A DNA stretch of 64,000 bases from Ceratodon purpureus (Eukaryota; Streptophyta; Bryopsida; Pseudoditrichales; Ditrichaceae): NCBI GenBank assembly GCA_014871385.1, contig CM026422.1:9402564-9466563 (forward strand). The letters run 5' to 3'. Of the stretch, positions 12,088 to 32,446 are shown piece by piece; the first letter of the stretch is position 1; every line of letters starts with the position of its first letter. Under the pieces are notes generated by a model. It did no database searches and was not told the DNA's origin. It saw nothing but the letters and a program-made list of their open reading frames with translations. The position numbers and the translations under genes are program-made.

Positions 12088-12092
12088 TAAAC

Positions 12093-13286: not shown

Positions 13287-13934
13287 CTATCGAATTGCAT
13301 TCATGGTGGGTATCTGAACTTTCTAATCATGTCTGTAAGTATGTAGATATTTCGTCTATGTCGCCCTCAATTGCGTCTGTGAGTGGCGCATCATGCCAGG
13401 GTAGCTCCTCGTCTTCGTTTCCTTATCTGTGCAGTTGGAGTTCTTTTTGGGTTTTCTGATCTCCTCGAAGGTCAGGCAAATTCTGATACCACAGGCCAAG
13501 CTTCGTCTGTATTGCATATAATTGGGTTTTTTTCTAAGGGTCATCAGTAATTGTATATGTTTCAGATGGCCGCTGTTCTCTTGCTGTCCCGTTCATGTGT
13601 CTTTTAGGGCTTGAGCTCTGCATTTGAGATATCGCTCATTGTATTGTTGTGGGCACTGGAATTCAGGATATGGGCCTGCCGGATATGTCCTGTTTGTGCT
13701 TGCTTATGCCGGATTAGAGGTATGACTCCCCTTCCCTCGCCTCATATATATTTCAATGGTTCAAGCTCTTTAGAACGAGATTTCGATGAGAATAAGTTGA
13801 AGTGCAATCGACTGTTTTGGGAAGAACTAACTTGTGTCCCATTGGACTACCGAGAAGCCGCTGCTGCAGGTGGTGCTCTTGTGGTTAAATTTCGATTTTT
13901 TCAAAGTAATCTGTAGTATCTTGCTACAGCAGAA

Positions 13935-13946
13935 AACATGAATATA
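13935..13946. repeat. Target-site duplication, left copy
   Basis: AACATGAATATA, repeated exactly at 32447-32458. Copy A has AATATGAATATA at 7969-7980, once. Confidence 0.9.
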
Positions 13947-13955
13947 TAGATAACT

Positions 13956-13974
13956 CTGGTAAATTAGTTACCAG
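13956..13974 (-). other. Hairpin at the 3' end of the retroelement
   Basis: A perfect 7-bp stem (CTGGTAA/TTACCAG, 5-base loop) lies 9 bases from the 3' terminus of the element as read on the minus strand. In several non-LTR elements without poly(A) tails a 3' stem-loop is what the reverse transcriptase recognises; that role is inferred here. Confidence 0.5.
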
Positions 13975-14852
13975 CGTGAATAAAGTGCCCTTTAATCTGT
14001 AAGAGTGCTGTTTGTAGGCCGTGTGGCCTACTCAGACTCTTCTAAGATTTAATGCCCCCTTTCGGAGGTGGGCTTTGTAGTAACCTATTTGTTTATTATT
14101 TTTATGAACCGACCACGACTTTATGGGAATGGGTTTTTGTGTGTAATCCGGGATTTTTGGTTAAGTAATAAGTGGTGATGTGTTGTGGTCACCCAGAGTT
14201 GTTGGGTATATTGGTTTATGCCGCTTGAATGGTACGCTCTTGGAGTGTAGCCGTCCGAGTTCGAGTCATGTTGAGGGCTTGGATGAAGGGATGCGGTGAA
14301 ATGCTAGTGGGAGTTTGGTAGGAAATAGGGCCCTCTTAAATCCTTGTGACATTTGGTGCTATCCGGAGTGAGCTATGTTTTCTGTGTCATATGTTGAATA
14401 AAGTATGTTTCTGTTTTATGGTTTTTGTAAGTGTGGGGAATTTTGGTTTAGTTGGACACGTGGTGTTGGCTGTGTTATGGGAAAATTTTTGGGGATGTTC
14501 CATATGGTTTGTGTTTGGTTGTTTTGGTTGGGTATATGTATGTGTGTTTTCTGTGTGGTGTATGCCAATGTCAGCATATTACTTATGGGGGTCACAATGG
14601 TCAGTGATCAGTTTGTGTGAGAGTATTGTGGTTTCCAGTGCTTCGATCCCGTGGACTTGTCTTCTCACATGGGTGCGGGGGAGTGGGGTATGTGTTGGTA
14701 TTTGGCACTTTTTGTACGTTTTTAGTGTGTTTTATTTTGGGGTTTGATGGCTGTGACGTTGTGGGGTTTCATTTAGAGGTTTGTGGGTTTGTGGTTTAGT
14801 GTGTTTGTGGTGTTTGGGGTTTGTCTTTTGTCTTGTGTTTGGTAGTTTTGAA

Positions 14853-15224
14853 ATGGATCTGTCGAAAAGTGGAGGCTCAGGTATTCGAGTTGTTGATGGA
14901 TCTGGGACTTCAGAGGTTCTGGAGGAGCAGTCTGAGAATGTAAGGGAGGATTTTCCAATTGTGGAGGGTTTGGATGGGCGAGCTCGGACTTTTGTTTTCT
15001 TGTTTCATGAGGAGCGTGTGGCTGGAGAGGCGGGAGTTCGGATATACGGAGGGTATTTTACCAAAGGAGAAGTGAGTGTGCGTGCGATGGAGCATCATCC
15101 TTCGACACCGGGTTTGATGAGGACTACTCTAGATATTGTTGGTCATTGGGGTTTTGCTGGGATTTCGCCAGTGCCAATGATACAGTTTTTTGTGGCATGT
15201 ATTCGGCAGTGCTTTGGGCACTAA
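14853..15224 (+). CDS. Unknown ORF or exon, antisense to the retroelement
   Basis: An ATG in a reasonable context (GAAATGG) opens 123 codons. The amino-acid mix is balanced (RTFVFLFHEERVAGEAG, VRIYGGYFTKGEVSVRAMEH, TTLDIVGHWGFAGISPVP), unlike the surrounding GT-rich, Leu/Cys/Val/Phe-heavy translations. A GT at 15209 has the right phase to splice to the acceptor at 15903 (TTCCAG|G) and would fuse this to the next exon, but the donor is weak. I do not recognise the protein. It lies within the insertion, so it is either carried by the element or was captured by it. Confidence 0.4.
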   Translation: MDLSKSGGSGIRVVDGSGTSEVLEEQSENVREDFPIVEGLDGRARTFVFLFHEERVAGEAGVRIYGGYFTKGEVSVRAMEHHPSTPGLMRTTLDIVGHWGFAGISPVPMIQFFVACIRQCFGH

Positions 15225-15904
15225 GTGATGTTGTTTTGGTGAAACTTTTATGATATGTAATTTTGCGGCTTTTAAGTAAAGTTTTATGAGTATTTTGAGT
15301 GTTTGAAGTGTGCAGTGATTGTTGTATGTTTGTGTTTTTTCGAACTTTATTTGTTTTGTTGTGGTGGTGGTTTTTTAGTGATCTTTCTGTATCGTGATTT
15401 TTGTGGGGGTTTTTCGGGTGGGTAACTCGGTGGTGTGGTTTAGATTTGGGTTAGTTAGTTTTGTAATTTTTGTGATTTCTAAGTTTTAGTTGAATTGTGA
15501 ATGATGTTTGATTATGGTGTTTTTGGTAGGATTTTGAATGATGGTGATTTCAGATTTTTAATGGTAAAGTTTGATGAGAGTGTGAGTTGATGTTTTGGAT
15601 AGGCTTTGTAATGATGATGATTTTAGAGAAATTTTTGTTTTATTTTTATTTTATTTTTTGAGTGTGAGTTGATGTTTTGGTAAGTTTTGTAATTATGATG
15701 ATTTAGACTTTTTGGTGAGATTGTGAGTTGATGTTTTGGTAAGTTTTGTAATCATGATGATTTAGACTTTTTAAGGTGAGAATTTGAGGAGGGTGGAGGA
15801 GGGTGGGTTTGTGCATTTTTGAGGTCTTTGTATATTTTGTGTGTACTTTGTTTGGAGGTGTTTTTTGGAGTGTACTTTGTGTATATTGTACTTTGTGTTC
15901 CAGG

Positions 15905-17220
15905 ATGGTGATGCCGTTCCGTTCCCCTTGGTCACATGGGCGGAGGAACAAGCGCCCTGGGCCTGGGGACGTGGTGACTTCCATCCGGAAATTTCGGCGT
16001 CGTTTGTGGTGGCGGCCTGAGCTCCCTATCTGGGGCTTTGCTTACCTCCATTTGCGTGACTACTACCCTGCGGTGCTGGAGGTGCCACAGACCCAAGAAG
16101 ATTTGGAGACTCTGTTGCAGTGGGTGGAGTGCTTTCGGCTTCGTCTCGGATTTCGTCTGCCGCCATATCCTCGTGTGTTTGCAATGTTGCAGCCAGGGTC
16201 CAAGTTTGTGTGGTCTAAGCGGGCGGCGTTGGAGTTGGCATTTCTGGGGATGGCTACTGGTTTCTTTTGGAGTGCCGAAGACCCACTGCCTCGTGAGTTT
16301 TCTGCGATTTTCTTTGTAATTGTATTGTGGTGAAGCTGTTTTGTGGGTTGGGTTTCATGGAAGATTGTTTGTTTTGTGTATGTGATGATGTAGTCAGTGT
16401 GGATTTTGGAGGTGATTTCATCAGCATTTTGGGATTGGTGAAAGAGGGTGCTCTGGTGGATGTGTAGTGGGAAGTGGAGTGGGTGTAAGTTTTGGATTCC
16501 TTGGATAGTCACAGCCTGCGAAGCTTTTTTGGGTCAGTGGATCGGCTTCGTGTTCGTTTGGTTTTTTGTTGGCTTGGTTTAGTGCGTCTGTTTACTTGTT
16601 TCTTACGGTTTCTTCTAGGTGTTTTAGAGTGGATTGTTGTTCTCTTTTAGATCAGTGAGTGGAGGTTTAGATTGAAATTGGGGAGGTCATTACCCCTAGA
16701 GTCTGATGACTTTGAGGAACCGATTACAGGGTTCTTTGAATGTGCAAATTGACGGAGATAGCTTAGCGAAAGGAGGAATTTTTTGGGAATCTTCTCGTAG
16801 AGCATGGGATTTGTTTTTGGTGGAGTGATGGATATGCGGCGGTTTGTGCTGATATGGGTTCATTTGCTTCGAATGGTTTTTGTGGTTTTGGGGTTGGGTG
16901 AGTCTGCTTCTGGTTGGTGTGATCGAGGACAAGCTGCGGTATTTTGCTGCTGATTTTGAAGTTTTGTTTGTATTTGTATGTTCAGGGTTTATGGATTTTG
17001 TTAGTTTGATGTTTTTGAGTTGGATGTGTTTGTAGAATTCTTGCAGATTTTTGTTTGTTTTGTAAGTTCTAATTGTGGGTGTGTGGTGGGTGCAGCTGTT
17101 CCTGATGAGCTGCGCTTGCGGTACAATTTGCCTCCTGTGGCCCTTGCTTCTCCGTCAGATTCGGTATTCGTTTTTCCGCCTACTCCCGAGGACAAAGCCG
17201 AGCCAGCTGTGACAGGATGA
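15905..17220 (+). CDS. Unknown two-exon protein, antisense to the retroelement
   Basis: Exon 15905-16292 and exon 17096-17220 join in frame (phase 1) across a donor CTC|GTGAGT and an acceptor GGGTGCAG|CTG, giving 170 aa. The first exon encodes a basic start (SPWSHGRRNKRPGPG, IRKFRRRLWWRPELP) and then YLHLRDYYPAVLEVPQTQED, RVFAMLQPGSKFVWSKRAAL and LAFLGMATGFFW. The second encodes PDELRLRYNLPPVALASPSD and an acidic Pro-rich tail. The exons are GC-balanced while the 803-bp intron and the flanks are GT-rich, which supports coding. No family recognised. An upstream acceptor at 15903 allows a further 5' exon. Confidence 0.5.
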
Positions 17221-18276
17221 ATTTGTGATGGAGGTTGTGGGCGAAGGAGTGTGCAGGCCCGAGAGGTGTGAAGGATTTGGAGTTTTGGTGTCATAGGGGT
17301 GTAGGCGGTGTTTTGTGGTGAAGGTTGATGTCAATGGATTCAAATTTTGATAAGGGTGTAGCTGCTTCAGAGGGGGTTTTGGAGATGTTATGAGATTTGG
17401 AGTGTTGGTGCTTTAAACTGTTTTCTGAATTTTCAGCAGGATTTAGACGATGCTAGATTCACTGTTTCGGGATTTGTCTGATTTAGGTGTTGATTACTTT
17501 CAACGGTGCTTTGGTGCCAGCAGTGATGACTGCTTTGTAATTTTGTAAAAATTGTGAATCTTGAATCGAAAGGAAAGTGGAGTTTATGTGTGATGATATA
17601 ATTTGTGAGTGTTTGTATATTTTGAATCAAATGGATTTCTTTTGAGTGTAGTTTGTGTGTGTGATGTGAGATGGGGAAGGTGGTGGTTCTTTGGTATGTA
17701 CTGTGTTGTTGTGTCTGTAATGACATATTGTATCAAGCCTGGAAGGTTTATAATGGACTTGTTGAATTTTTTATGGTCTTTAGTTGTAGGTTTTTGAGCT
17801 TGTCATTGCTTTGCAGGATGTGTTGTTTATATGTGTATTATGGTGCATTGTGAACTTGGTATGGGATTTGTGTAAGAGCTATGGGGTTTATAATTAGAGC
17901 TCACATCAGGCTTTGAGTTGTTGCCCGCCTTTGCATGAAGTCCATGAGTTAACTGGTATTTGTTTGTTGTCATTCGTTGCTGATGGTGATTTTCGATTAT
18001 GCAACCATTAGTGTCTGTTTGTATCAGGTGGTTATAAGGGCGTGGGTGAAGAGTTTCTGGTGTCATCCCTTTTGGTGTTTTTCATCCGTCGACGTTTTTT
18101 GTTTTTCATCTAGTTTGTTGGATTTTGGATGACTGTTTTTGAGTGTGGGGAGAATTAACAGTGAGTTAATATCTTGGAATGTGTGGTTTATTTACTAATT
18201 TGGACTTTAGTTTTGGGTTCATAGGGGGGGTAATTTGGTAGTGGGGTATATGGGTATTTTATTATCAAATTTTGGT
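17221..18276. other. GT-rich part of the retroelement 3' region, no gene seen
   Basis: Between the antisense gene and the end of the RT ORF. Plus-strand G/T bias continues; open frames here are short and compositionally trivial. Confidence 0.5.
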
Positions 18277-21200
18277 TTAATCATCGATTGTTTGTTGGTT
18301 GTTTTCTAATCGTCTTTTGTTTAGTATGATGTGGCATAAGTATTTGACAGCAATTTTGTGTATTTTGGTCATGCATTGTTTAATTGCTTTTTGTGGGATT
18401 TTCAATTTATTCTTAAGTAGGTTGATAGATGGTAAATGTATTCCACCACGAGGGCCTGCTGTAAGTATGATTATGGGTGCTGTGTTCCAGCCTTCATCTT
18501 GAATTTGTTGTATGAGTTCTTCATATTTTGCGATTTTTTCAGTGACTTTGTCTGGGCTGAATCTATCATGGCAAAATGTGAATTCGATGTATTGAATTGT
18601 TGTAGATGGATGTGGGATTTGTGGGGGATCAGATAGGTGGGGTTGGCCTTGTATACATAGTATATCGGGTTTGAGTCGTGCATTACAGTAGCATCGACCT
18701 TGGCAGTGACATGTAATTAGCCAGTTTGGTACGGTATTTTCTTGTGGTTTGTTTTCATATGTTCCTGCGTTCATGTATGTTAAAGATCTAGAGTTTTTGT
18801 TGGATAGGAGGAGTTTGCGTATTTCCCATACGGCTTTGTTATGTCTATTGCATCTGAGTTTGTGAAGGTGGGTTTGTGGGCATGCTAGTAGTAGGTGTGG
18901 CCATGTGTCTATGTTTTGTAGTCCACATAGGGAGCAATTGGGGTTTGGGAATTGAAGGGGAAAGAAAAGGTTTTTCCTTTGGTTACCCATGTATTGGCCG
19001 TATCTAAATTTGAGTAATTGTGTGATTTGGGCGTCTGATACCTCAGGATCTTTCCAGAATTGGTTGGATAGTTTGTTGTCTAATTCGTTATTGGATGTCC
19101 ATTTGGCAATGTTGAGGTGTCTTGTTTGTATGGTATTTATTTGTGTGGTGTTGATTTGGGTGGTGAGATATTGGTCTAGGTCTCGTATTGGGCCTGTTAT
19201 GGGGTGGTTATTTAGTTTGGAGAGCCAATATGGTGTGGTATGTGCTCTATGTTGTGGGGTGGTGATTTGTGGGATGTTATTTCCTCCGATTTTAGAACCA
19301 ATGTGTGCAAGTTTATCTACTACTTCGTTCCCGGTGATTCCAGTGTGTGCTCGGACTTTGTGGATGGTGGTATGGTTTCTACGGATTTGTAGTTGTTGGA
19401 TAATTTCATGTAGTAATATTTTGTCTGGATGATTATTGTGTTGTGTGGGGTGGTTCATATGTATATTAATTAGATATAGACTGGTGAGACTATCTGTAAA
19501 AATATGGGTATGATGTGTATTATTTTTTGTTAAAATGAGTGTTTCAAGTATAGCTGTGAGCTCGGCTCTTAGTATTCCTTGTAGGCCTATAAGTCTTTGT
19601 GAAATTTTAATGTTGTGGTAGCTATTGTAAATTCCGTATCCAGCTATATTGCCTTTGGGTGTTCCTGTAGTGGTTTCTGTGCTTGGCGGTTCAAAAGATC
19701 CATCTGTGTAGTAGTTGTGTTGGGCTGGGAATTTTATTTTGTATTTTTTATGGGAGATGGGATATGTACTTATGGTGTGTGGATGTTGGATGATGGGGTA
19801 TTTGGATGTTTTGTGCCATTTCGTGTGTTCTTTAACTTTTGAGTGTGGTGGTGTATTTACTGGTTGTATGATGGTGCTGTCTGATTGTAGTAGGTGTTGT
19901 ATTAGTGTTTTGAGAGGAGTGGTAATATCTGGGATAGTTGGGTGAGAGTTTTTGTTGTGTATGAATAAGATTTTAGTAGATAGTGGTTCGGTTATGTTGT
20001 AGTATTTGGGTAGTCCTTGGTGTGCTTCATATTTGAGTGTGTCTGGGAGGAATGTTGCTATTGTGTGAGTGTCTGGAAATTCATTATTGGTGAGTGTGTG
20101 GTTGGTATACCAGGTGGGGTTAGGGAATATTATTACTGTTGTGGAGTTGGGGTCTTGTTGGGCTGCAAGTCTGGCGCAATGTATTGCTTGGAGTGTAGCT
20201 TGGTGGTTAGGAGGGTGTGCGTATCCGTTTCCTTGCCATTGAAATTTAAATGCGGGTCCTAGTGAGCCAAAGATTTCATCTCTTTGGTGGATAGAGTGAT
20301 AGTGTGTGAATTTGGTATTACATGTTAGTGGATTTGAAAAATATGAGTGAGTTATATGAAATGTTTGTTGTAAATATTGTATTAGTTTGGATGGTATGGT
20401 ATAGTGTTCATTGTTATTTTTTATTTGTTTTGGGTTTATTGGAAGGTGGGTTATGTATCTATGGAAGAGCCATAGTATTTTTGTGGCAAAGTCTTGAATG
20501 GGAGGGTTTGTTGTAATATGGGTGTTTTGTTTAGTATGTTCAAATTTTTCCCATAACCATTGGAGTCTAGTAGAGGTAATGTTTCCAATGTATTTTCCAG
20601 TGTTATCATAAATGTATGCTAGGGGGGGGATGTTTTGGATAGTTGGTTTATTTGTGCATATGTCTAAGTCGGGGTTGCATTCTTGTATTGAAATGTGAAT
20701 GTTGGCCATTTTGTGTGGATTTGGGATATGTTTTGTGTCTTTTGTTTGTTTTTGGGAAAATTGGTTGTGGATTTTATTTTTTATTTGTGTGTTTTTTATG
20801 TGTGTGATGTGTTGGTGTAGTAGATATAGATTGTGTGTAATTTGGTTTTGTTGTGGTATGTTGAATAATTTTTGTTGTTTGAACCATTTGGTAGAGTTTG
20901 AGTGGTTGGTTTGGCATAGGAATTTGTAATGATTATTGGTGATGTTTAATGATGTTTCTTTTTGTTTGAGGTATTTGTATTTTATGATTTTTATTATAGG
21001 TTGGTTTTCATTGTTATGGTGTGTATGTTCATTGTGACTGGGGATGTCGGTGTGTGTTGGGGTTGTGGGTGGGTGTTCTGATTCTGGGATGTTAGTGTAT
21101 TGTGTCATTAGTGTGTGAGTAGTAGTATTGTTATGATGTGTACATTGGTGTTGGCAGTCTATTTTGCATATATGGATTCTTGTGCAGAATAGGTGTTGTG

Positions 21201-23385
21201 CTGTGGTGAGTGCGTTTTTGATTATTTTGGGTGTGCTCTTATATTTTTTTAAGAAGTCTTTTTGGCACATTATGGTAGTGTGGTTATCTTGGGTGATTTG
21301 TGTAATGGATGTCATTTGATAGAGTAGTAGTTTATTTAGGTATTGTTGTTTATTATTTTTTTGAGTGGGAGTTTGAGAGTTCCAGTGTATGCTTTTGGTC
21401 CATTGTTCTTCTAGTGGGGATTGGTATAGGTTAAATGGGGTGAGAAGGGATTCTAGATGAATGTCTTGTTCTCGAAGGATGTTAAAGGTTCTGGATATTG
21501 GTGATCTATGGCATGCATGGGCTGTTAATCGGGGTAGTTTATGAGATCCTCCATTTTTTGCTATAATGTAATTTGTTAGACCTCTGTATATTGTTCCAAG
21601 TCTGCCGTTGTCATTGAGAGCTTTGATGAGTTGGTTTCCTAGGCAATTAACGTAAGCTTTTAGGAAGGAGAATGCTTCTAGGCCAAAGTTGTCGTATGGA
21701 AGTTGTGTGGCTAGGTTGGGTGTACTTTGGGGAATATTGCATATTTTTTTGGTGAGTTGGATAATCAATTTGTCTAGTTTCTTAATTCCAGGGGTGGAGA
21801 AGGGGGCGGCGTGGAAGCTGTATTCTACTCCCGGGCGTAATACTGTGTTGGTAATTTTGATTTTTTGTCGGATTGTTGCTGGACTGGTGAGTAGTTTTGT
21901 ACTTTGGAGTTTTAATTTGTTTGTGGTAGTTTCTTGTTGTAAGTTCCACTTGAGAGATGGGATCAATTGGATTCCAAGGTATGTGTATGCTTCATTTTGG
22001 TGTAATACTGGGAAGTGTTGGCTATTGTATTTGATGTTGTGGCTTTGTAAGAAGGCTTTGAAGGTAATTGGATTTAGATTGGATTTATTTGGGCAGCCTG
22101 TGAGGGCGCATTTTGTGATGCTAAGGTCCATGCCTGCCCATTTGTTGAATCTTTCAAGTTTATGTATTTGGAGTTGTAGGTTTTTAATTTCATTTGCTAA
22201 GATGGCGAGGTCATCTGCATAGGCCGCTGTTGGTATTTCAATGTTGGATGTTTTGAATTTATAACCAAGATTCCCTTGTTGGAGCCAACGTAACAGAGGT
22301 TCTAGGAATATTAGAAATAGGTATGGGCTTAGTATATCTCCTTGGATGGTTCCTCTTTGGATTGTAACTGGTTTGGTGATTCCGAAATGTTGTCCTGAAA
22401 ATGATGTGGTGGAGTCTGTGTAAATGTTTCCTATCAGAGAGATTGCTTCTATTGGGTATCCAAGGTCTTCCATGAGTGCTAGAAGTCTGGCATGGTCTAT
22501 GGAGCCAAATGCATTTTTAAAATCGATGTATAGTATGTGTATGTCTTGTTTTGTAAATTTGGCATCTTCAAGTGCTGCTAATATTGTTTGTATTTGTCTT
22601 GTGGTACATCTTTCTTGCCTGAATCCTTCTTGTGCTTCGTTTAGGATTTGGTAATTTTCGCCATATGCAGAAAGGATTGATGTTAAGGTACTGGTAAATA
22701 GTTTGTAGATGGTATTGGCTAGTGCAATTGGTCTGAAATTTGTGAGATATGTGGGGTCTGATTTTTTGTAGAGTAGGACAGTTGTGCTGTGCTTCCAGTA
22801 TGGAGGTATTTCTTGCTGTAAGTAGCATTGTCTAAAGAATAGGAATAGCATGGTATGAAATTGATGGGGTAGGTGTTTGATTATTTCATTGGGAATGTTG
22901 TCTGGGCCAGGGGCTTTTCCATTTGATAAATGTTTGAGGCAGAGGTCATATGTTTCTTGTGAAAATAAGTTTTTCATGTGTCTGAGGGGTTGTCCTCTTT
23001 TTTCTAGGATGAAGCCATCTATATCATGCCAGGGATATTGCTTGACTAGGCATGTGCATTTGGGTTCGTGGTCAGTTGGGTCAGAGCATATTGGTACTGT
23101 TGGTTTAAAGTTTATTGTTTGTTGTTCATATATTGCATTGGCTATGTCTTCTGGGTGGGTAAGAATTTGGTTTTTTGAGTCACGGATACTGTCTAGAGTT
23201 ATGGATGTGTCATTTTTAAAGATGGTATTGTGTATTCGTTTTGGATGTGTGTTGAGGAGGTTCCGGTATTTGGCTATGGCTTTTGTACAGTTTGTGTTAA
23301 TTTGTTTGTATGTTATTTGTTGTGCTAGATTTTTTGCTTCTTTTGCTTTTGCTGCTAAATATTTGTATCCAATTTTGTGTGTCAT
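18277..23385 (-). CDS. Reverse transcriptase - RNase H - zinc knuckle - RLE-like polyprotein
   Basis: 1702 codons from ATG 23385. RT occupies about residues 150-420: HLSNGKAPGPDNIP, motif A LYIDFKNAFGSIDH (D288), RGTIQGDILSPYLF and the catalytic AAYADDLAIL (YADD 389-392). A Cys/His cluster follows at 734-751. RNase H (about 1222-1365) keeps D1228 (YYTDGS), E1275 (LRAEL), D1298 (FTDSL), H1347 and D1357 (GNEVVD). A zinc knuckle C1484-x2-C-x9-H-x4-C1502 precedes a second Cys cluster (CHCQGRCYC, 1559-1567). The end has PD1574, E1601 (IEFT) and K1617-x2-KY, the order of a PD-(D/E)XK restriction-like endonuclease as in R2 and Dualen. Known: these activities nick the target and prime cDNA synthesis there. 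Frame is open throughout, so the protein could be active. His/Thr/Asn/Gln excess reflects the A/C-rich strand. Confidence 0.85.
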   Translation of the reverse strand: MTHKIGYKYLAAKAKEAKNLAQQITYKQINTNCTKAIAKYRNLLNTHPKRIHNTIFKNDTSITLDSIRDSKNQILTHPEDIANAIYEQQTINFKPTVPICSDPTDHEPKCTCLVKQYPWHDIDGFILEKRGQPLRHMKNLFSQETYDLCLKHLSNGKAPGPDNIPNEIIKHLPHQFHTMLFLFFRQCYLQQEIPPYWKHSTTVLLYKKSDPTYLTNFRPIALANTIYKLFTSTLTSILSAYGENYQILNEAQEGFRQERCTTRQIQTILAALEDAKFTKQDIHILYIDFKNAFGSIDHARLLALMEDLGYPIEAISLIGNIYTDSTTSFSGQHFGITKPVTIQRGTIQGDILSPYLFLIFLEPLLRWLQQGNLGYKFKTSNIEIPTAAYADDLAILANEIKNLQLQIHKLERFNKWAGMDLSITKCALTGCPNKSNLNPITFKAFLQSHNIKYNSQHFPVLHQNEAYTYLGIQLIPSLKWNLQQETTTNKLKLQSTKLLTSPATIRQKIKITNTVLRPGVEYSFHAAPFSTPGIKKLDKLIIQLTKKICNIPQSTPNLATQLPYDNFGLEAFSFLKAYVNCLGNQLIKALNDNGRLGTIYRGLTNYIIAKNGGSHKLPRLTAHACHRSPISRTFNILREQDIHLESLLTPFNLYQSPLEEQWTKSIHWNSQTPTQKNNKQQYLNKLLLYQMTSITQITQDNHTTIMCQKDFLKKYKSTPKIIKNALTTAQHLFCTRIHICKIDCQHQCTHHNNTTTHTLMTQYTNIPESEHPPTTPTHTDIPSHNEHTHHNNENQPIIKIIKYKYLKQKETSLNITNNHYKFLCQTNHSNSTKWFKQQKLFNIPQQNQITHNLYLLHQHITHIKNTQIKNKIHNQFSQKQTKDTKHIPNPHKMANIHISIQECNPDLDICTNKPTIQNIPPLAYIYDNTGKYIGNITSTRLQWLWEKFEHTKQNTHITTNPPIQDFATKILWLFHRYITHLPINPKQIKNNNEHYTIPSKLIQYLQQTFHITHSYFSNPLTCNTKFTHYHSIHQRDEIFGSLGPAFKFQWQGNGYAHPPNHQATLQAIHCARLAAQQDPNSTTVIIFPNPTWYTNHTLTNNEFPDTHTIATFLPDTLKYEAHQGLPKYYNITEPLSTKILFIHNKNSHPTIPDITTPLKTLIQHLLQSDSTIIQPVNTPPHSKVKEHTKWHKTSKYPIIQHPHTISTYPISHKKYKIKFPAQHNYYTDGSFEPPSTETTTGTPKGNIAGYGIYNSYHNIKISQRLIGLQGILRAELTAILETLILTKNNTHHTHIFTDSLTSLYLINIHMNHPTQHNNHPDKILLHEIIQQLQIRRNHTTIHKVRAHTGITGNEVVDKLAHIGSKIGGNNIPQITTPQHRAHTTPYWLSKLNNHPITGPIRDLDQYLTTQINTTQINTIQTRHLNIAKWTSNNELDNKLSNQFWKDPEVSDAQITQLLKFRYGQYMGNQRKNLFFPLQFPNPNCSLCGLQNIDTWPHLLLACPQTHLHKLRCNRHNKAVWEIRKLLLSNKNSRSLTYMNAGTYENKPQENTVPNWLITCHCQGRCYCNARLKPDILCIQGQPHLSDPPQIPHPSTTIQYIEFTFCHDRFSPDKVTEKIAKYEELIQQIQDEGWNTAPIIILTAGPRGGIHLPSINLLKNKLKIPQKAIKQCMTKIHKIAVKYLCHIILNKRRLENNQQTIDD

Positions 23386-25651
23386 TATGTAGGGGTGGAG
23401 GTGGTGTGTTTTTGGATGGTTGGGTCATGTTTCTGATGTGTGGATGGGTTCTCCATTGTGTATTGTGTGTGATGATGTATATCATTTTCCTTAGTGAGTG
23501 GTAGTTTAGGAGGTGTTTTTTCCATTGTTTTTGTAATTTTCTTGGTAGATAGCCGCCTTGTTTTTTGGTTTTTTCAGTAAGGGTTGGATATGGTTTGGTT
23601 GTACATGTGTCTCTTATGCATTTTGTAATGGTTTTTATTATTGTTTTTAGGTGTTTGCAAGAGTTTTCCCATGTTTGTTTATTTTGTATTTCGTTGATTT
23701 GGAGTATGTGTGTGAGGTTTTCTATTGTGTTGTTGGATTTTTCTAAAAATAAGTTTTGGAAGTTTTGGAGTTGTTCTGGAGAGATGGGGTTTGATAGTTG
23801 GGCGGGAGGTTGGATGGATGTAGGAGTTGGTCTGGCAATTAGTGTGTTTTGTGGAATGTGGAGTTGTGTGGGAAAGTGGTCAGAGTTTTGTATGTTTTCG
23901 AGGTTGGTTGTGTTGGTGTATTGTGTGTGGTTGGCATCGTTGGTATAAAATCCGTCGATTAGGCTAGTGGCTGTGTAGTTGAGACCTCCTTGTCTAGTAT
24001 AGTGTGTGTTTGTTGGAATATAGGTTAGTTTTAATGCCTGAGTGAATTGTTGCCATTGTTTGTCTTTATTAGTGGGTGGTGTATGTTTTTTGTTAAAGTC
24101 TCGGCCGATCATTGCAATGTCACGGTTATAGTCTCCACTCATAATTGTGACATGTTGTGGTTTGAGTGAGATTTGTTTAGTGATTTCTTTTTGAATATGT
24201 GGGATGAGGTGGAGATCTTCAAGATGTGAGGGCATATAAAGATTGATGAGTAGTATGCTGGTGAGGGGTTTGTTTTCGATGGTGATGATTTGAAGGTAAG
24301 GTGAAATGTTTGATGGGCTTGGAATTTTGTTGATATTATTAATGTGAGTATATGTTTTGTGTATCATTGTGAGTAGCCCTCCTCTTGATGGGGTGTAGGG
24401 TAGATAGGGACGTTTTGCACATATTGTTGCCGAATTGGTGTTGTTAAATATTAGTGTGTAGTCTAGGAATAGTTTGTTTAGATATTTGGTGGATTTTGTT
24501 GTTGAGAACTTTGTTTCTTGTAGGTGTATAATGGCTGGTGTTTGGTCTTGTTTTTGGGTGAGTTTGTGCAGGCCAGGGATGGCTGTATTGAGTGATCCTA
24601 CATTCCATGTAGTAATTTGAGTTTTTGTTTGTGTATAGTTGTCTTTTCTTTGGTGGGGAATGTTAGTGTGTGTGTTTTGTGTTTGTGTTTTGTGTTGGTA
24701 ACCGATAATTGGGTCTCGACATTTTAGTGTTTCGTGTATAAGTTCTAGAGGTAAGTATGGAAATTTGTTATGGATGTCTTGGAGAGTAGGTGGAGGGTTT
24801 GTGTAGATGTACGTGTATATGTCTTTGTTAATAGTGTTTTGTGGATTAATGATGTCTTTGTTGTTTTCAAAGAAGATGTGTAATGGGTCCATTGGGCCGT
24901 ATTGAATGGTTTTGGATATAGAGAGTTTATTTAGTTTATGTAGTATTTTTGTCCATTTAGGGACTCTATGTGTGTGAATATATGTTTCACATATGTCAAT
25001 TGTAGGTCCTATGGTGATAATAAATCGAAATAGTAGGTGTTGAGGTGCATATTGTGTTAGTGTGAGACATTGGTTTGCTAGATTTGGGTGGGTAGTAGTA
25101 CTATAGGTGTGTAGGATGTGATTTGTATTTAAAAAAGGAGCAAACGGTTTTGCTAAGTGTGCGTAGGGAGAGGTAAGTCTTATTGTGTTAGGGTAAAAGT
25201 ATTTTTTTTGTTTGGCAATATGGGCTTTTGGTAGGTTTTGTGTGATGCGGTTGATGGGACCTGGGTTGCTTTCTATATCGCCACATTGTTTTAAGAAGAG
25301 GGATTTATGTGAAGGTATGTAGGTGTGAGAGAGTATGTTTTTGTTTCTTGTATTTTGGTGGATTTTGTGTTGTATAAATTGATGTTTCCGGATTTTAGAT
25401 TGTGTAATTATTGTTTTATTATTTGATGTTAGTTGGTGTAGATGTGTGTCTTTTTTGGTTTGTTTTATTATTATTATTATTATTATTTTTATTTTTATTA
25501 TTTTTTTGATATTGTGAAATTGGTGTTTGCAATTAGTGTCTGGTGTGAAGTTTGTTTTGGGATGGTCTTGGGGCTGGATGATGGAAATGCCTGTAGGCCG
25601 TGTTTGTTGGATTTGGAAGCCCGTGGGTGTTTGTAAGACCGTGGGTGTCAA
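23297..25651 (-). CDS. 2A peptide and AP-type endonuclease ORF of the retroelement
   Basis: 784 open codons that start at a TTG. The frame has no ATG before codon 254, so entry is probably by frameshift or a non-AUG start. Residues 123-132 (CGDIESNPGP) fit the 2A consensus D-[VI]-E-x-N-P-G-P. The AP endonuclease spans about residues 346-600, with TTWNVGSLN (N350), HLQETK (E379), RGGLLTMIH, IMSGDYNRD (D507, N509), SLIDGFY (D566) and NSDHFP (S590 D591 H592): all catalytic positions are present. The C-terminal ~180 residues form a linker. The ORF overlaps the RT ORF by 89 bases in a frame one base apart, whereas relatives carry both domains in one protein. A TTA/ATT-rich microsatellite encodes an oligo-isoleucine stretch near residues 51-62. 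Confidence 0.8.
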   Translation of the reverse strand: MTPTVLQTPTGFQIQQTRPTGISIIQPQDHPKTNFTPDTNCKHQFHNIKKIIKIKIIIIIIIKQTKKDTHLHQLTSNNKTIITQSKIRKHQFIQHKIHQNTRNKNILSHTYIPSHKSLFLKQCGDIESNPGPINRITQNLPKAHIAKQKKYFYPNTIRLTSPYAHLAKPFAPFLNTNHILHTYSTTTHPNLANQCLTLTQYAPQHLLFRFIITIGPTIDICETYIHTHRVPKWTKILHKLNKLSISKTIQYGPMDPLHIFFENNKDIINPQNTINKDIYTYIYTNPPPTLQDIHNKFPYLPLELIHETLKCRDPIIGYQHKTQTQNTHTNIPHQRKDNYTQTKTQITTWNVGSLNTAIPGLHKLTQKQDQTPAIIHLQETKFSTTKSTKYLNKLFLDYTLIFNNTNSATICAKRPYLPYTPSRGGLLTMIHKTYTHINNINKIPSPSNISPYLQIITIENKPLTSILLINLYMPSHLEDLHLIPHIQKEITKQISLKPQHVTIMSGDYNRDIAMIGRDFNKKHTPPTNKDKQWQQFTQALKLTYIPTNTHYTRQGGLNYTATSLIDGFYTNDANHTQYTNTTNLENIQNSDHFPTQLHIPQNTLIARPTPTSIQPPAQLSNPISPEQLQNFQNLFLEKSNNTIENLTHILQINEIQNKQTWENSCKHLKTIIKTITKCIRDTCTTKPYPTLTEKTKKQGGYLPRKLQKQWKKHLLNYHSLRKMIYIITHNTQWRTHPHIRNMTQPSKNTPPPPLHNDTQNWIQIFSSKSKRSKKSSTTNNIQTN
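25256..25279 (-). other. 2A-type ribosome-skipping motif (DIESNPGP)
   Basis: Codons GAT ATA GAA AGC AAC CCA GGT CCC read on the minus strand, preceded by LFLKQCG. This fits the canonical 2A pattern; in characterised 2A peptides the Gly-Pro bond before the last proline is not formed and translation continues. Inference: the endonuclease-bearing product is released from whatever is fused upstream. 2A-like motifs are known near the N-termini of some non-LTR ORF proteins (for example trypanosome L1Tc and sea-urchin elements). Confidence 0.85.
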
Positions 25652-25725
25652 TGGGTGTGGTAGAACCGTGGGTTGTGGGGTTTTGGTGATTGCGTTTTGA
25701 CTGGTTTTTGTGCATGGTGTTTGTT

Positions 25726-28374
25726 TTATTTTAGGTTTAGTTGCTTGCAGTCGGGTTTTTGTTTTATGTTTTGGTTTGGGGGGGGGGATGTTCTTGGATG
25801 TGTGTGCCGAGTATGCTGGTGTGTGTAATTGTGTGTATGTTTTATGGTATTTTGGTTTGTGGTGATGGGTCGATTGTGGGGCTGGGGTTGGGGAGACAGT
25901 CTGAGGGTTGAGTAAGTTTTGTTTGGGGGGTGTGGCTTTTGTGCGGCAGAGTGATGTGTTATAGTTTGGTGTTTGTGGTATGGGGTGTGTATTTGTGTGA
26001 GTGTTGGGGTTTGATTAGTCGTTGGTTTTAGTTGGGGGTTTCTATGATTTGTGCATTGGATTAGTAGTGGGTTGCGTATATTTATTAGGGTTTTGGATTG
26101 TGGATGAGTGTGGGACCGAGACTTGGGGATTGGGTTCAGGGATATGGGTCGGTGAGTGTGGGTTTGTGTTGGGGGTTTATTTTTGGTTTGTATGGGTGGA
26201 ATTGGTTTAGTGTAGTATGGGTTATGGGGTGGGGTTTGTTTGTGTGGGAAATTCGATATTTGTGTCTTGGGGTGGTGGATGATGGTGTGAGTAATCTGGG
26301 AGTGGTGTGAGGTTAGGGTTTTATGGGTTGGTGTTTTCTGTATGTGGTTTTTATTGTGAATGCTGGGGTAGGAGGGGTAGGATTGGTTTTGTGAAGAAGT
26401 CCAAAGTTCATGGTATGTGTTGGGATTTGATTGTGGTTGGGCTGGGTTGGTATTCCTGGATTGGGTGAAGTTTATGTGAGTTGGGTGAATTAGGTGTCGC
26501 ATGTGTGTGGGACGTGGGGGGTTAATTGCGTGTGTTCTCGATTTGGATGTGGGAGTTGGGGTTTTGCAGGTGGTGGGGACTGTAAGTTGTATGGAGTAGC
26601 TTTTTGTGCAGAGTTTTAATGTGTTTTTTGGTTGTGATTGGAGTGTGTTCAGGAGGGGTTTTTTAATATTTGGGGGTGTATGCAGTGGTGTGTAAAATTG
26701 GTTTTGTGATTTGAGTGAGGTCTGCGTTGATGGTTGTGGTCCTGGTTTTGTGTTGTCTGGGTATTGTTTTTGGAGTCTATTGAATAATGCTTCGTGTGTA
26801 TGTGTCGAGTAGTGGGAGATTGGTTCTATATGTGGAGTTAGAAAATTGGATAGGGGTGTGTTGTGTAGCTGTTTGAGTGAGTTTTTGTGGATTTTGTTTT
26901 TGAATTGGTTGTTTTTATTTAGGTTTTGTGCATGGATCTTGGTTTGTCGGGATATTATGCGGGTATTTAAGGTAGACGACCTGTTTCTGATCACCTTAAG
27001 CAATTCAGCATACTTCCAGTGAAGTATCAAACACACAAATAATTTTGGAGCATAGGGAAATAGATTTGAGGAAGATCATATATTTTTGAACAAATTTTGG
27101 AGCAATATTGAATTTACTATGAATTTTCAAAGTGAAGATTCTCTCCAACCCATTCTTGTTATATAGGCTGATCTATTTCCAAGAACTGAAAAACTACATT
27201 CCAATACTGGTGCTACTTGATATCAAGAACAAATGATATCCAAAAGTCAAACTTTCCTCCAATTGGAATTGAACACTTGTGAACTTTATACTATGTCGCC
27301 ATTTACAAATGAATACAAAAATAATGCGAGCCTATGGTTGGAAATAGGTCGGCCTATACTGCGTTATTGGGGGCCTGATCGGAAACAGGTCGTCTACCTT
27401 AGGAGATAGTTGGAGAGTTTGGTCTGTGTGTGTTTTTTGTGTTCGGATTTGTTTAGTGTGTTAGTGTGGCTGTGTGTGGAATGAGTTTGGTATGGGTTTG
27501 TGTGTGTCAAAGGGTTGGGTGTGTGATGGGGGTTAGGGTGGTGTTTATGTGTTTGTGTTGGTGTTAAGGTTGGTCGGGGTGTGTTTGGTTGGGGAGGTGG
27601 ATTCTGAATTTGGAGGGTGGGTTGAGGGAAGGTTACTATTTTGTGTAGTTGGTGCGCAGGTTTATGGAGCTGATGTGGGTCGTTGCTGTGTAGTCGGTAA
27701 GTAGTTTGGATCCATTTGTGGTGTGTGTGATTATAGTTATGTTCATAGGGGGGGATATGAGGATGGAGATGTTGCTGTTGGGGTGTGCAGGGAAGGTGAA
27801 TGGGATTTTCTCGTGAAATATGTAGATGAGTATTTCGGTGGGATGTGTGAGAGTTTTGAGGGGGATGAGATAGATGTTGGGGTGTGGGTTTTTGGAATGG
27901 TGGTGTTGTGAGTTTTGTATTTTTTGTGGTATGAATGTGGAATTGGTATGTGTTAGAGATAGCTCGGGTGGGAATTGTGAGATATGGGGAAGGAAGAAAA
28001 TATATTCCGTATGTGTTGTTTACAAGAGCAGTTTGTAAAGATACTGCTAGAGTGGAATCAGCTGCCCAGGGGTTTGCGATCGTCTGATTTCTAGGTATAA
28101 GAACGGAAAATGGTGCATTAGACTGTGATGCTAATGTAATTCTATCCTCTGTGTTCGCGTGTGTGTGGGGGGGCCTTGAGTTTGTATTACACATTACTGA
28201 TATTGGTTTTTGTGTAATATGGGTTGGGTGCAGATGTCCCGCCTGAGTGGGTCGAGGATGAGCCAAGGCGGTGTTGGGTGGGGATCTTGGCTGCATTGTG
28301 TGCGGACGTACTCCTGATGGGGGCCTCGGAGTTGAGTAGTGCTGGGGCGGTGGTGTAGAGGGCAGATTGTCCAA
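25726..28374 (-). CDS. Low-complexity His/Thr/Pro/Asn-rich open frame of the retroelement, interrupted by a MITE
   Basis: Two minus-strand frames, 27394-28374 and 25726-27036, are one frame split by a 430-bp MITE. Element plus one TA is 432 bp, so frame is kept once it is removed (NYLL | NTRIIS), giving about 740 codons. The present sequence has a TAG three codons into the MITE. The frame opens with TTG, not ATG. Composition is repetitive (QTHKHHPNPHHTPN, NYTHQHTRHTHPRT), with no domain I recognise. Because the strand is A/C-rich, stop codons are rare by chance, so openness is weak evidence of coding. Near its end it reads through ten consecutive C residues, where a one-base slip would enter the 2A-APE frame. 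Confidence 0.4.
25778..25787 (-). promoter_or_regulatory. C10 homopolymer, possible frameshift site
   Basis: Ten C on the sense strand, nine codons' width inside the overlap of the low-complexity frame and the 2A-APE frame (both open here). A -1 slip would fuse the two. Equally it may mark a one-base indel. Confidence 0.3.
26970..27399. mobile_element. 430-bp MITE inserted in the retroelement
   Basis: Terminal inverted repeats AGGTAGACGACCTGTTTC at both ends match over about 22 bases with one mismatch (TGATC/CGATC side). Flanking TA at 26968-26969 and 27400-27401 fits a TA target duplication (Tc1/mariner-like), although TTA is also arguable at the left end. Interior is not coding. Confidence 0.8.
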
Positions 28375-29671
28375 GGTCTGGGTGTGGGAATGTAGCTATG
28401 TTGGGTTGGGTGTAGTGGGAGGGTGCGGGGTGGGTGAGGGTCATGGCCAGGGAGGGGTTTTGTACTAGGAGTTGGTTTTGAGTGTAGTGAGTGGGTTGGG
28501 GGTACTTGGTGGGGTTCTGTGGGGTATATCCTGGGGGGGCTATGGCGGAGAGGCTACTCTGGAGCCCTGAAGTCAGACCATGTATACTGTTGGACATGCC
28601 CCCAAATGCTGCCGAGATCTCAGCCAGGGAATGGAGCATACGGGTTTGGGATTCCTGGATGCCGAGTCTAACATCTTGCATTTTACCTTCTAATGAGCTC
28701 TCTGTCTGGTGAACTATGGATTTTTCTAATGTCTGCAGTCTGTTTTCTAGTCTAATCTCATGTGCCTCGAAGCATTGGGTGATGTCCGATGTTTTGAGTG
28801 CATGTGATTGGACATTACTGAGCATTTCAACAGTTTCAGCCATAGCTTGGGGAGTGGTGGTCTTTGGGATGGCTTCGACGGCTGCAGATTTTTCTGGTCC
28901 ATTGGTACTCTTCCTGTGAGGTTTGAAGTAGATAAGTTGGCCGAGTAATTGCTTGGGTTTGGCCTTGCTCCAGTTGCTGTATACAGTAGCGTTGGATAGT
29001 TGTATGTATGCTATACCATCATGTCTCAGCTTCTCGTCGTCCTTTGCAGCACCAAAGGAGATGTCAAGAATGTTAGCAGCCCCTATGAGTGAGTTGATAG
29101 CTGTTTTGACTCTGGGTTGTGCTTGATCTATAGAGATATTTGTGACCTGAATGGTAGTACTAAGCTTGATGTCGGTTGCAGGGATTCGCTCACCTTCTGA
29201 GTGTGATAGCGGTAGGCAGACCATAAGTTTCTCATTGTTGAGTAAGAACGGCCTTGTAAGAAGAGTCTCTCGGGAGGCTATTGATCCTGTGGTAATAAAC
29301 GCATACTTTTGGTTGGTGCTGTGTTTGATCACTTGACTGATCTCAAGTTCGTATCCGTCCAGGTAGCCTTGGCGAGTGAGATCGCTGAAGACTTGGTTGG
29401 CGGATTTGCCTGAGAGGGAAGGGACTGTGATGTATAGCCTATTCTCTGAGGCTACTAGGTCGTAGGCTTTCTCAGCCTTGCCGATAACATTAGTTTGTAT
29501 GTTGTAGATGAGTAAGGGAAGGACAAACGGGCGCTTGCCTTGGAGAATGTCAATGGCGTCCTTCTCTGGATTGAGAAGATCCACTTTAAGAAATCCGAGC
29601 CACATGTGTGTCTTGGGGTGTACAAAAGCTATGATAGGTTCCCTATATCTGGTTCCTAGTCGAATTTTCAT
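28187..29671 (-). CDS. Retroelement ORF1-like protein with a C-terminal coiled coil
   Basis: 494 aa from ATG 29671 (CACCATGAAA). The frame is open from a GTG at 29704, but the ATG lies just 5 bases after the stop of the preceding ORF, so it is chosen. The first ~270 residues have normal, globular composition: REPIIAFVHPKTHMWLGFLK, AYDLVASENRLYITVPSLSG and LRHDGIAYIQLSNATVYSNW. Then comes a likely coiled coil (ENRLQTLEKSIVHQTESSLE) and a Pro/Thr/His-rich tail. In position and design it resembles the nucleic-acid-binding ORF1 proteins of LINEs; I see neither a certain RRM nor CCHC knuckles. Composition contrast with the neighbouring low-complexity frame argues that this one is a selected coding sequence. 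Confidence 0.7.
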   Translation of the reverse strand: MKIRLGTRYREPIIAFVHPKTHMWLGFLKVDLLNPEKDAIDILQGKRPFVLPLLIYNIQTNVIGKAEKAYDLVASENRLYITVPSLSGKSANQVFSDLTRQGYLDGYELEISQVIKHSTNQKYAFITTGSIASRETLLTRPFLLNNEKLMVCLPLSHSEGERIPATDIKLSTTIQVTNISIDQAQPRVKTAINSLIGAANILDISFGAAKDDEKLRHDGIAYIQLSNATVYSNWSKAKPKQLLGQLIYFKPHRKSTNGPEKSAAVEAIPKTTTPQAMAETVEMLSNVQSHALKTSDITQCFEAHEIRLENRLQTLEKSIVHQTESSLEGKMQDVRLGIQESQTRMLHSLAEISAAFGGMSNSIHGLTSGLQSSLSAIAPPGYTPQNPTKYPQPTHYTQNQLLVQNPSLAMTLTHPAPSHYTQPNIATFPHPDLGQSALYTTAPALLNSEAPIRSTSAHNAAKIPTQHRLGSSSTHSGGTSAPNPYYTKTNISNV

Positions 29672-29675
29672 GGTG

Positions 29676-30305
29676 TCAAATCTCTGGGTGGCTAGGCTGA
29701 TCACTGATGGCTTCTGGTTTGGAGAGGTGGTGGTATCCAGTTTCGAATCTAAGGAGGAGTTGATGGCCTTTGGAGAGGCCTGTAATGGGGTCTACGGGGT
29801 AGTTCTTTGGGATTTGAGTGTGGTGCAGGTACTGGCCAGCGGCGGTGTCAGTTCTTTCTTTGGGAAAGAGGAGCTGGGGAACATGGGGGTAGGCTTTATC
29901 GCAGTTGTAAAGCTCTATGGCTTCGGTTCGAGGCACTCCTATGCTAGCTAACTGTGCTAAAGTACGAGTTTCTATGATGGTTGGGCTGGCTGAGTTTGCG
30001 GCATTGGCTTCGTGTGTTGCAAAACTGAACCACAGGTCTTCTGTGAAGATGATGGGCGGTACTAACATTCTGGGTGCTTGGAAGGGGTTGGGTTGGGTTG
30101 GTAGGGGGGGTTGGCAGGGGTGAGGTTTGGGTTGATCTGGGGCGATATCTTCTACCAAGGCTTGCGGGTAGGGAGCTAGGCGCTGCGACTGGTCTAGGGG
30201 GGAGTCAAGAGCAAGTGGTGTATTATGGGGTTTGTCTAGGTCGATGGGCATGCCTAGCAAAACTGAGTCTGCGAAGGTGTTGGCGTCAGTGTCTGAATCA
30301 CTCAT
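29676..30305 (-). CDS. Retroelement ORF, 209 aa, unknown function
   Basis: ATG 30305 overlaps the stop of the upstream ORF as ATGA, and its own TGA lies 5 bases before the next ATG. The protein begins acidic (MSDSDTDANTF), has a Pro-rich middle and a more ordered C-terminal half (IFTEDLWFSFATHEANAANS, LAQLASIGVPRTEAIELYNC, NYPVDPITGLSKGHQLLLRF). No family recognised. The tight spacing on both sides suggests termination-reinitiation, as shown for the LINE SART1. Confidence 0.6.
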   Translation of the reverse strand: MSDSDTDANTFADSVLLGMPIDLDKPHNTPLALDSPLDQSQRLAPYPQALVEDIAPDQPKPHPCQPPLPTQPNPFQAPRMLVPPIIFTEDLWFSFATHEANAANSASPTIIETRTLAQLASIGVPRTEAIELYNCDKAYPHVPQLLFPKERTDTAAGQYLHHTQIPKNYPVDPITGLSKGHQLLLRFETGYHHLSKPEAISDQPSHPEI

Positions 30306-32317
30306 GAGTTCATCGGGTGGGAGTTGTTCCAGGTAGTTCTCTCAAGCTTGGCTTTCAAATTAGCTTTGGCTGTGCTATGCTGTTCTTGGTCTATGTCATC
30401 AGGTTGGGATTTGGCTTTCTTTCTGATGCTGGTTTTGGTGGTTTTGACAGGGGTCTGTTTTTCTGAGACGGATCTACTGATGCGTTTGTGACTAAGTCTC
30501 TTGAATGTGCGAGGTGCTACCTGTGCAGACTGGGTAGAGGCAGCTGCGCTGGGTTCTGGTTCTTCTTGCCCAACAGGGGCTCTACAAGTGATCTTAACTG
30601 TGGCTTTGGTCATGGTTGAGAGCTTGCTGCGGAAATCTACTGTATAGAGGTGAATGAGTAGAACAGTTGTGGAAAGGATAGGGGTGGGAAGGAGATGGTA
30701 ATATGGTTTTGTTTTTTGTTTTTTTTCTAAGGATAGGGAGGTGAGGGAGTAATGAACTGAAGAGGAAAAAAATTGGTTTCTTACTGGGTTGTGTACTGTT
30801 GTAGATGGGTCGGTGTTTGTGGTGCGGCAGCTGTGGCGTTTCGTGATGAAGGAGGAATGTTGCTGCAGGGGGTCGTGAAGGCTTATCTTGTGTCCATGCG
30901 CGATGTGAGTAGGAGATCGGAAGTTCGATGTGGCATAACTGTGGAGGCAGAAAGTAGTTAGTGTAGGTAACGTTAGTGCTGTATTGAATTTTGCAAAATA
31001 AATTTGACGCGGATGTGGAGTTCTGAAATTATCTGTTCTAGCATATGAGAAGAGCAATATGATGATACAAAATGAAAATAGTGATGGGGGAAGAGAAGGG
31101 TCTATGTGTTGGCTTCGTGCAGTCGGGGTTGGCTTGAGGTTGTCTGCAGGGTGGGTGTGTTGGCTGGTGTGAGGGATGTGAGCTACACGAGGTTCAGTGG
31201 CTGTGTAGGGGTTAGATGATGAGGAGTGTGAGGGGATATAAGAGATTGTGGGGTATCTAAGGTGGGGGTGAAAAACTGGTTCTAAGAGTTGGGTGGTGGT
31301 GGGATGGGGTCGTGCGTGAAAGAGTGGTGGTAGTAAGGGTGAAGTAGATATGCAGAATGTTCTAGAGTTTAAGGGTGTGCTACTCTCTGTGTGATGAAGG
31401 ATGGGTGAATGTGAGAAGGGATTTTTGTAGGGCCTGTGGGGGGGGTGTGGAGCGCAGAGGCTGTCTGTGCTAGCTGTACTGTGAGTAGAGGATAGGGGAG
31501 GTGAGAGAGTGAGAAAATCCCATGCCTGTTGAAGTGATGTGTGCGTTCGGTGATTATGTGTGGGAAGTGTCTGGTTTAAATAGTTTTGGGTTTTGTGTTG
31601 ATGAGTGTGTTGTGTGGGATATTTGGAGTGGATATGTTGAGGGAGTATGGGTGCGTGCAGTGAGAAGTGTGCCGAGAGGGTTTGATGGAAGTTAATGTTT
31701 GGGGGCGAGTTTTGGAATTTGGGAGAGATAGTATGTTTGGAGTAAATGCTTGGAGTCTGAAATTGGAATGTGAACTGTTGCTGGGCCGTCTTTGGCTGCC
31801 GTTGCGTGATGCGTGAAGCTGCTCCTGGTGTGTAAAACACCCACCTGGCCAAGAGATTTTTTCTAAGGCGCAAGGTGTTGAAATTCTTGTTTTCTTGTGC
31901 ACTGTTGAGTGTGTCAAAGGGGATGCATCTTGATGGCTTGGGCGGCGTTGATACTTCTCCATGATGTTGCAGGGTGTGGGGATTAGCTAGCAAGTCTAAT
32001 TCTGGCCTTTGCTTTGTTTTCTGAACTTGTCTAAAGGTGGGCCTGAGGGTGTCACTCAGAGTGTGTTGGGAGAGAAGCTGTGGTTCACTAGTTTGTCTAA
32101 AAACTCCTTCCTGTCGGATCTGGATATTTCTAAGAGGGTGTCTATGTTCGTCTCCCTGATTGGACTTGAACGAGTACAAGGGTTGCGACGGCACAAGCCT
32201 GTCACTGAGAAGAAGCCTATAGCTACTCTTGACACCAGTCCCGCCATCGCTACTCTTGACATCAGTCCCGCCATGGCTCCGCAGTTTGCGGTGCTCGCTG
32301 CTCTCCATCGCGCTCAT
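30302..32317 (-). CDS. First retroelement ORF, probably only its basic C-terminal ~103 aa is protein
   Basis: 671 codons are open from ATG 32317, ending in the TGA that overlaps the next ATG. Most of it (residues ~150-560) is low-complexity Pro/His/Thr/Ser, expected from an A/C-rich strand and perhaps just a leader. From the internal ATG at 30613 the sequence changes to a compact basic protein (TVKITCRAPVGQEEP, RTFKRLSHKRISRSVSEKQT, KTTKTSIRKKAKSQPDD), which could bind RNA. At the extreme start a 27-bp direct repeat encodes GGTDVKSSDGGTGVKSS. I recognise no domain. Confidence 0.45.
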   Translation of the reverse strand: MSAMESSEHRKLRSHGGTDVKSSDGGTGVKSSYRLLLSDRLVPSQPLYSFKSNQGDEHRHPLRNIQIRQEGVFRQTSEPQLLSQHTLSDTLRPTFRQVQKTKQRPELDLLANPHTLQHHGEVSTPPKPSRCIPFDTLNSAQENKNFNTLRLRKNLLARWVFYTPGAASRITQRQPKTAQQQFTFQFQTPSIYSKHTISPKFQNSPPNINFHQTLSAHFSLHAPILPQHIHSKYPTQHTHQHKTQNYLNQTLPTHNHRTHTSLQQAWDFLTLSPPLSSTHSTASTDSLCAPHPPHRPYKNPFSHSPILHHTESSTPLNSRTFCISTSPLLPPLFHARPHPTTTQLLEPVFHPHLRYPTISYIPSHSSSSNPYTATEPRVAHIPHTSQHTHPADNLKPTPTARSQHIDPSLPPSLFSFCIIILLFSYARTDNFRTPHPRQIYFAKFNTALTLPTLTTFCLHSYATSNFRSPTHIAHGHKISLHDPLQQHSSFITKRHSCRTTNTDPSTTVHNPVRNQFFSSSVHYSLTSLSLEKKQKTKPYYHLLPTPILSTTVLLIHLYTVDFRSKLSTMTKATVKITCRAPVGQEEPEPSAAASTQSAQVAPRTFKRLSHKRISRSVSEKQTPVKTTKTSIRKKAKSQPDDIDQEQHSTAKANLKAKLERTTWNNSHPMNS

Positions 32318-32446
32318 AGAGACAAGCCACGGTTACTCTGCAGCACCATATTGCCCCCAAGAAAGTCTGCATTTCTGCAGCAAACCATGACAAACCCGAT
32401 TATGTGGATAAGTATGAGGGCGTAAGATTAGTACTCGTACTGCAGT

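Follow-up and report, generated by a model that had tools for sequence, protein, structure and literature searches.

Does a land-plant genome harbor a long interspersed nuclear element (LINE) that combines an APE endonuclease with an R2-type restriction-like endonuclease (RLE)? The question is raised by a stretch of 64,000 nucleotides from the moss Ceratodon purpureus (contig CM026422.1, positions 9,402,564 to 9,466,563; hereafter the window). An earlier note on this stretch had recognized the two nucleases in adjacent open reading frames (ORFs), a combination it knew from Dualen/RandI elements of green algae, and had proposed a new or much extended clade. Very likely, the window holds one damaged member of a plant LINE family of the Dualen/RandI kind that is large, has been active recently and encodes an ORF1 and a dual-nuclease ORF2. 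The insert spans about 18.5 kb (13947-32446; features of the element lie on the minus strand of the window unless stated otherwise), and the genome of this moss contains many copies of it. The observation is real, and the reading of the family as a Dualen-type branch in a plant, extended by further parts, is well supported. Of the two proposals, a much extended clade is the better fit, since the element falls within the Dualen/RandI kind.

The host genome has 32 matches to NAC domains, which mark a land plant or a close streptophyte, in agreement with the land-plant host supposed at the outset. Dualen/RandI LINEs of green algae were reportedly described by Kojima and Fujiwara in 2005. Published papers describe such green-algal elements (PMC4640811, PMC3636483, PMC8226300), known from Chlamydomonas and relatives (PMC8226300), and annotate Dualen in cryptophytes (PMC12747079), and a 2022 review gives land-plant LINEs as L1 and RTE only (PMC9033089). 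Searches of openly licensed papers turned up no Dualen element reported from a land plant.

APE and RLE in one element

The occurrence of APE and RLE in one element is a real observation. The APE domain (23852-24619) carries in one ORF the complete catalytic set that the earlier note had listed, and it matches the xth/ExoIII NCBIfam model under the cut-off (E 4.9e-6). In the second ORF a CCHC knuckle (18880-18936) lies upstream of the RLE (18316-18858), whose PD, E and KxxKY motifs stand where they had been placed, and structure prediction for this C-terminal segment gives an R2-type PD-(D/E)XK domain, as had been proposed. By readable place in the genome, PD is kept at 25/25, EFT at 19/19 and KxxKY at 19/19; by genomic place, the first CxxC and the HxxxxC of the knuckle are each kept at 34/36. 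Among 125 scored RLE places, the frames of at least 2373 amino acids number 21, and in every one of them an in-frame APE match precedes the RLE on that strand. Such genome counts are lower bounds, with 125 of 1040 RLE, 150 of 277 PCIF1 and 147 of 381 APE candidates scored.

An RLE profile found 13/13 of its model members in leave-one-out trials (E 1.1e-27 or better) and seven of eight further clade proteins (E 2.7e-9 or better); the eighth, P0021, has no match and may end before the RLE. Tree groups were defined before this scoring. Of the 21 dual-clade rows of the reverse transcriptase (RT) tree, 16 show the RLE and the other five stop short of the RLE region. An ordinary APE-only LINE of plant L1 or I type, in which the zinc knuckle and the KPD...KY stretch are chance or a non-nuclease tail, would fit the restriction of reported land-plant LINEs to L1 and RTE (PMC9033089), the lack of an R2 RLE match by sequence, and the weak scores of three APE-only relatives with the profile (best E 9.9e-5, 6.2e-4 and 1.6e-3). 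The predicted RLE fold and the RT tree argue against this explanation, which we regard as most unlikely. Neither outcome that the earlier note had set as a refutation, a segment that fails to fold as PD-(D/E)XK or an RT placed firmly in an APE-only clade, was seen.

The ratio of nonsynonymous to synonymous substitution (dN/dS; pooled Nei-Gojobori values over non-independent pairs, stop-containing codons skipped) is low in every domain tested: each of them, both nucleases included, has been kept for function. In the window's subfamily it is 0.03 for the RT (five copies), 0.06 for the RLE (10 of the 13 copies at 90% or above, three partial ones being excluded), 0.08 for the APE (four copies, the broken APE of copy C9 being excluded), 0.09 for RNase H (nine copies) and 0.12 for a PCIF1-like domain (eight copies). 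In a second subfamily the values are 0.16 for the RLE, where dS is saturated, 0.20 for the PCIF1-like domain and 0.10 for RNase H. We also considered that both nuclease domains may be present with one of them vestigial, so that only the other works in integration. Three insertion sites without a common sequence are what APE alone would be expected to produce, and a lysine of the RLE is substituted in some relatives. Strong purifying selection on both nucleases in the same genome, and the APE upstream of every long RLE frame, make this unlikely.

The RT domain (21946-22947; Pfam RVT_1, E 2.4e-28) and the RNase H domain between RT and RLE (19261-19722; motifs YTDGS, RAEL, TDS and GNE..D, and a profile match), the latter already named in the earlier note, complete the enzymatic core. 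Relatives came from protein searches, the first yielding 38 and the third 15 with one in common, and the RT tree comprises 48 rows (21 dual-clade, 24 other LINE and three R2). All of the dual-clade rows fall on a single branch (support 99/97), separate from the other LINE rows, APE-only ones included, and from R2. Within it are P0016 from Haematococcus lacustris, which has both APE and RLE, and P0044 from Pleodorina starrii, a protein that ends at the RT; both hosts are Chlamydomonadales. The element shares with Dualen/RandI an APE N-terminal to the RT, a C-terminal CCHC knuckle and RLE, RNase H between RT and RLE, and an RT clade with chlorophyte dual elements. It departs from plant L1, an APE-only group with an L1 RT, in having an RLE and an RT that lies apart from P0052 (Centaurea) and its sister P0054, which we take to be L1.

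An R2-group element could instead have gained an APE independently, in which case the dual arrangement evolved twice. Among solved structures R2 is also the closest to the RT, and a constraint uniting dual-clade and R2 rows is not rejected (approximately unbiased test, p-AU 0.41). The separate branch of the 21 rows, the RNase H that they have in common and the PCIF1-like domain in 20 of the 21 proteins spanning its region argue otherwise. We hold this explanation to be very improbable. As for membership in the R2 group itself, the RLE is not the element's sole endonuclease, and the insertions show no fixed target in 28S ribosomal DNA.

Several points weigh against a dual-nuclease family of the Dualen kind. 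The window copy is damaged, with frame changes in both ORF1 and ORF2, and 4 of the 25 APE frames of at least 2373 amino acids in the scored list lack an in-frame RLE match (21 have one). The knuckle is damaged at 2/36 places in either half, and two of the 12 relatives aligned (P0015 and P0016) have alanine in place of K1617 of the RLE, a lysine lying one position away in P0016. A phmmer search of the RLE piece against the PDB did not retrieve the RLE of R2. In the RT tree the Dualen kind is represented by relatives such as those of Haematococcus and Pleodorina, not by the type Dualen of Chlamydomonas reinhardtii or by Repbase entries. Two further searches were uninformative: a protein search with residues 893-1702 of the second ORF returned just two matches, both already known, and an Rfam search returned none.

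Reading frames, ends and movement of the family

The two ORFs of the window would also be accounted for if the two nucleases came from two different elements, nested or joined. Copies C1 and C5, read directly, have an ORF1 followed by uninterrupted ORF2 frames of 3312 and 3042 amino acids from stop to stop, in the order 2A, APE, RT, PCIF1-like domain, RNase H, CCHC, RLE (a short text pattern for one PCIF1-like motif matches in C1 only; Pfam finds the domain in C5). Together with the 21 long frames these copies refute a composite origin, and in the relative P0008 (59% RT identity) APE and RT are fused; we give the idea virtually no weight. In the window, the APE and RT frames overlap at 23297-23424 through a frameshift private to this copy. 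A programmed frameshift was rejected: the single-base indels of the window and C7 copies lie at different places and are absent from C1, C5 and C9, and are therefore damage.

The ORF1 region (28187-30341) consists of two overlapping frames in the window copy, with dN/dS of 0.09-0.14 in one part and 0.05-0.11 in the other (dS being saturated in part) and no Pfam match to its pieces; in three other copies ORF1 is one open frame of 999-1380 amino acids, stop to stop. The ATG of the ORF2 frame (28192-28194) overlaps the last ORF1 codons, in an identical -4 position in 4/4 copies, which suggests reinitiation. Intact copies probably have an ORF2 of about 3000-3300 amino acids that starts at this ATG. 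It opens with a low-complexity region (25286-28191, frame-disrupted in the window copy) followed by the 2A motif CGDIESNPGP (25256-25285), identical in 4/4 copies and correctly placed by the earlier note. That note, then, had captured the two-nuclease core. It had missed how large the element is, that intact copies have one undivided ORF2, and the presence of ORF1, a PCIF1-like domain and antisense exons.

The insert is flanked by a 12-bp target-site duplication, AACATGAATATA, at 13935-13946 on the element's 3' side and 32447-32458 on its 5' side (11 bp by script, the twelfth base read off the junction sequences). The segment 7487-11052 corresponds to 13451-13949 (97.6%) and 32429-35527 (99.1%) joined, so the target is duplicated, one half being an empty site, with one mismatch within the 12-bp target sequence, and the other holding the insert. 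The duplicated target region covers 6871-13949 and 32448-38534; a 21-bp repeat (12579-12873) lies in it, within a coiled-coil-like ORF on the plus strand (12060-13286). A 3.1-kb direct repeat was rejected as a pair of long terminal repeats, as it is part of this duplication.

Copy C7, on contig C7, has both end regions in common with the window copy, the 3' end being the same, and has its own 12-bp duplication (17.7 kb in all). Copy C9 is 5'-truncated inside the APE and has a 12-13-bp target duplication; 0/500 random flank pairs from it have more than 10 bp in common. C7 and C9 are 99.5% identical across 10 kb, which indicates recent movement of the family. The target duplications of the window, C7 and C9 insertions (12-13 bp) are three unrelated sequences with nothing obvious in common. 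Loss of the 5' end and duplications whose sequence varies are typical signs of target-primed reverse transcription.

The long 3' region (13947-18276) is conserved in parts down to the common 3' end, where a hairpin (CTGGTAA/TTACCAG, 13956-13974) precedes a TA-rich tail and is kept in C7 and C9 with a changed loop. An end about 180 bp past the RLE stop codon, the point at which similarity to C1 and C5 declines, was dropped, because C7 and C9 match again to the common 3' end. Strand bias is strong: along most of the element the sense strand is rich in A and C (plus-strand G-C skew up to 0.83). At about 18.5 kb, it is among the longest LINEs known to us.

A PCIF1-like domain, antisense exons and a possible mechanism

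Between RT and RNase H lies a PCIF1/CAPAM-like methyltransferase fold (19846-20709), matched by Pfam PCIF1 above the cut-off (E 1.1e-12, residues 958-1099 of the window's second ORF). The catalytic-module fold is present, and the NPPF catalytic motif is not: the window has HPPN at its position, AH[PT][HPNY][NTD] stands at 34/34 readable places in the genome, and none of 20 clade proteins examined has NPPF (three have NPE). Searches of openly licensed papers turned up no LINE reported to contain a PCIF1 domain. Other domains accompany the core in some relatives: P0016 has a Josephin domain and a 2A motif and P0042 a PHD finger, and cysteine protease matches in P0009 (OTU) and P0041 (Josephin) are below the cut-off. 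Pfam shows no Josephin, OTU or PHD finger in ORF2 of C5.

The 3' region contains antisense exons on the plus strand that are under purifying selection, most clearly exon B. Exon A (14853-15221, 123 amino acids) has a dN/dS of 0.20 over eight copies, two of them with one stop, and exon B (15905-16297, 131 amino acids) has 0.12 over eight copies without stops. By tblastx the frame of exon B is clearly the best conserved, whereas other frames are almost as similar in exon A, so that its case is weaker. A possible third exon (17098-17217, also plus strand) has a 61% tblastx match to C7. Neither exon A nor exon B matches Pfam. Exon B has 48 genome matches; of the 15 at 72% or above, 12 have a listed RLE match on the other strand at a distance of up to about 3.5 kb, and three are without a listed one. 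The outsized contig C6 (110.5 Mb) has many antisense-exon matches with stop codons, which suggests old, decayed copies.

We suspect that ORF2 is expressed by termination-reinitiation and that the 2A motif cuts its product into a leader protein and an enzyme. The enzyme would reverse-transcribe its own RNA at a nick, as in target-primed reverse transcription. The RLE, which would sit beside the RT as in R2, may make one staggered cut and the APE the other, giving a short duplication with no fixed sequence at the target, and RNase H would degrade the RNA. Having lost its catalytic motif, the PCIF1-like domain most likely serves to bind the cap at the 5' end of the element's RNA and would not methylate it. 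A broader proposal is possible but rather doubtful: that a cap-handling machine exists Dualen-wide, with the NPPF-less domain gripping the 7-methylguanosine (m7G)-capped 5' end and the RNA looped, and that the antisense exons make up an accessory gene that the element carries. This gene is apparently spliced, and its introns would be safe from loss, since the RNA from which the element is copied comes from the opposite strand. If true, the cap grip would favor full-length copying of an 18-kb template, and the two nucleases could make both staggered cuts in one complex.

Comparison with known systems

Dual-nuclease elements have been cited as an argument that APE-only LINEs arose when the RLE was replaced (PMC4640811). 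Because both nucleases are under selection in a large plant family that has apparently been active recently, their division of labor becomes testable in a plant, rather than just inferred, for a combination so far described mainly in algae. The LINE repertoire of land plants is widened beyond the reported L1 and RTE, and the LINE parts list gains an RNA-cap methyltransferase fold and antisense exons.

With R2 the element shares the CCHC knuckle, the RLE fold and RT similarity. R2 is site-specific and is not known to carry an APE, whereas an APE and three differing target sites are found here. Plant L1 LINEs, in which we know of no RLE, have in common with it APE, RT and often RNase H. Their RT lies elsewhere in the tree, and the L1 (A)n tail described in the 2022 review (PMC9033089) contrasts with the hairpin and TA-rich tail found here. 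The PCIF1/CAPAM N6,2'-O-dimethyladenosine (m6Am) cap methyltransferase resembles the domain in fold, in the FGS.GP stretch and in flanking motifs, but here the domain sits within a LINE polyprotein and lacks NPPF. The closest likeness is to Dualen/RandI of green algae: these too combine both nucleases with RNase H in one element, and the RT falls in a clade with the Haematococcus and Pleodorina elements. In contrast to those, this family has a land-plant-type host, a length of about 18.5 kb, a separate ORF1 and antisense exons, and it carries a low-complexity leader and 2A motif where P0016 has a Josephin domain and P0009 a weakly matching OTU protease domain.
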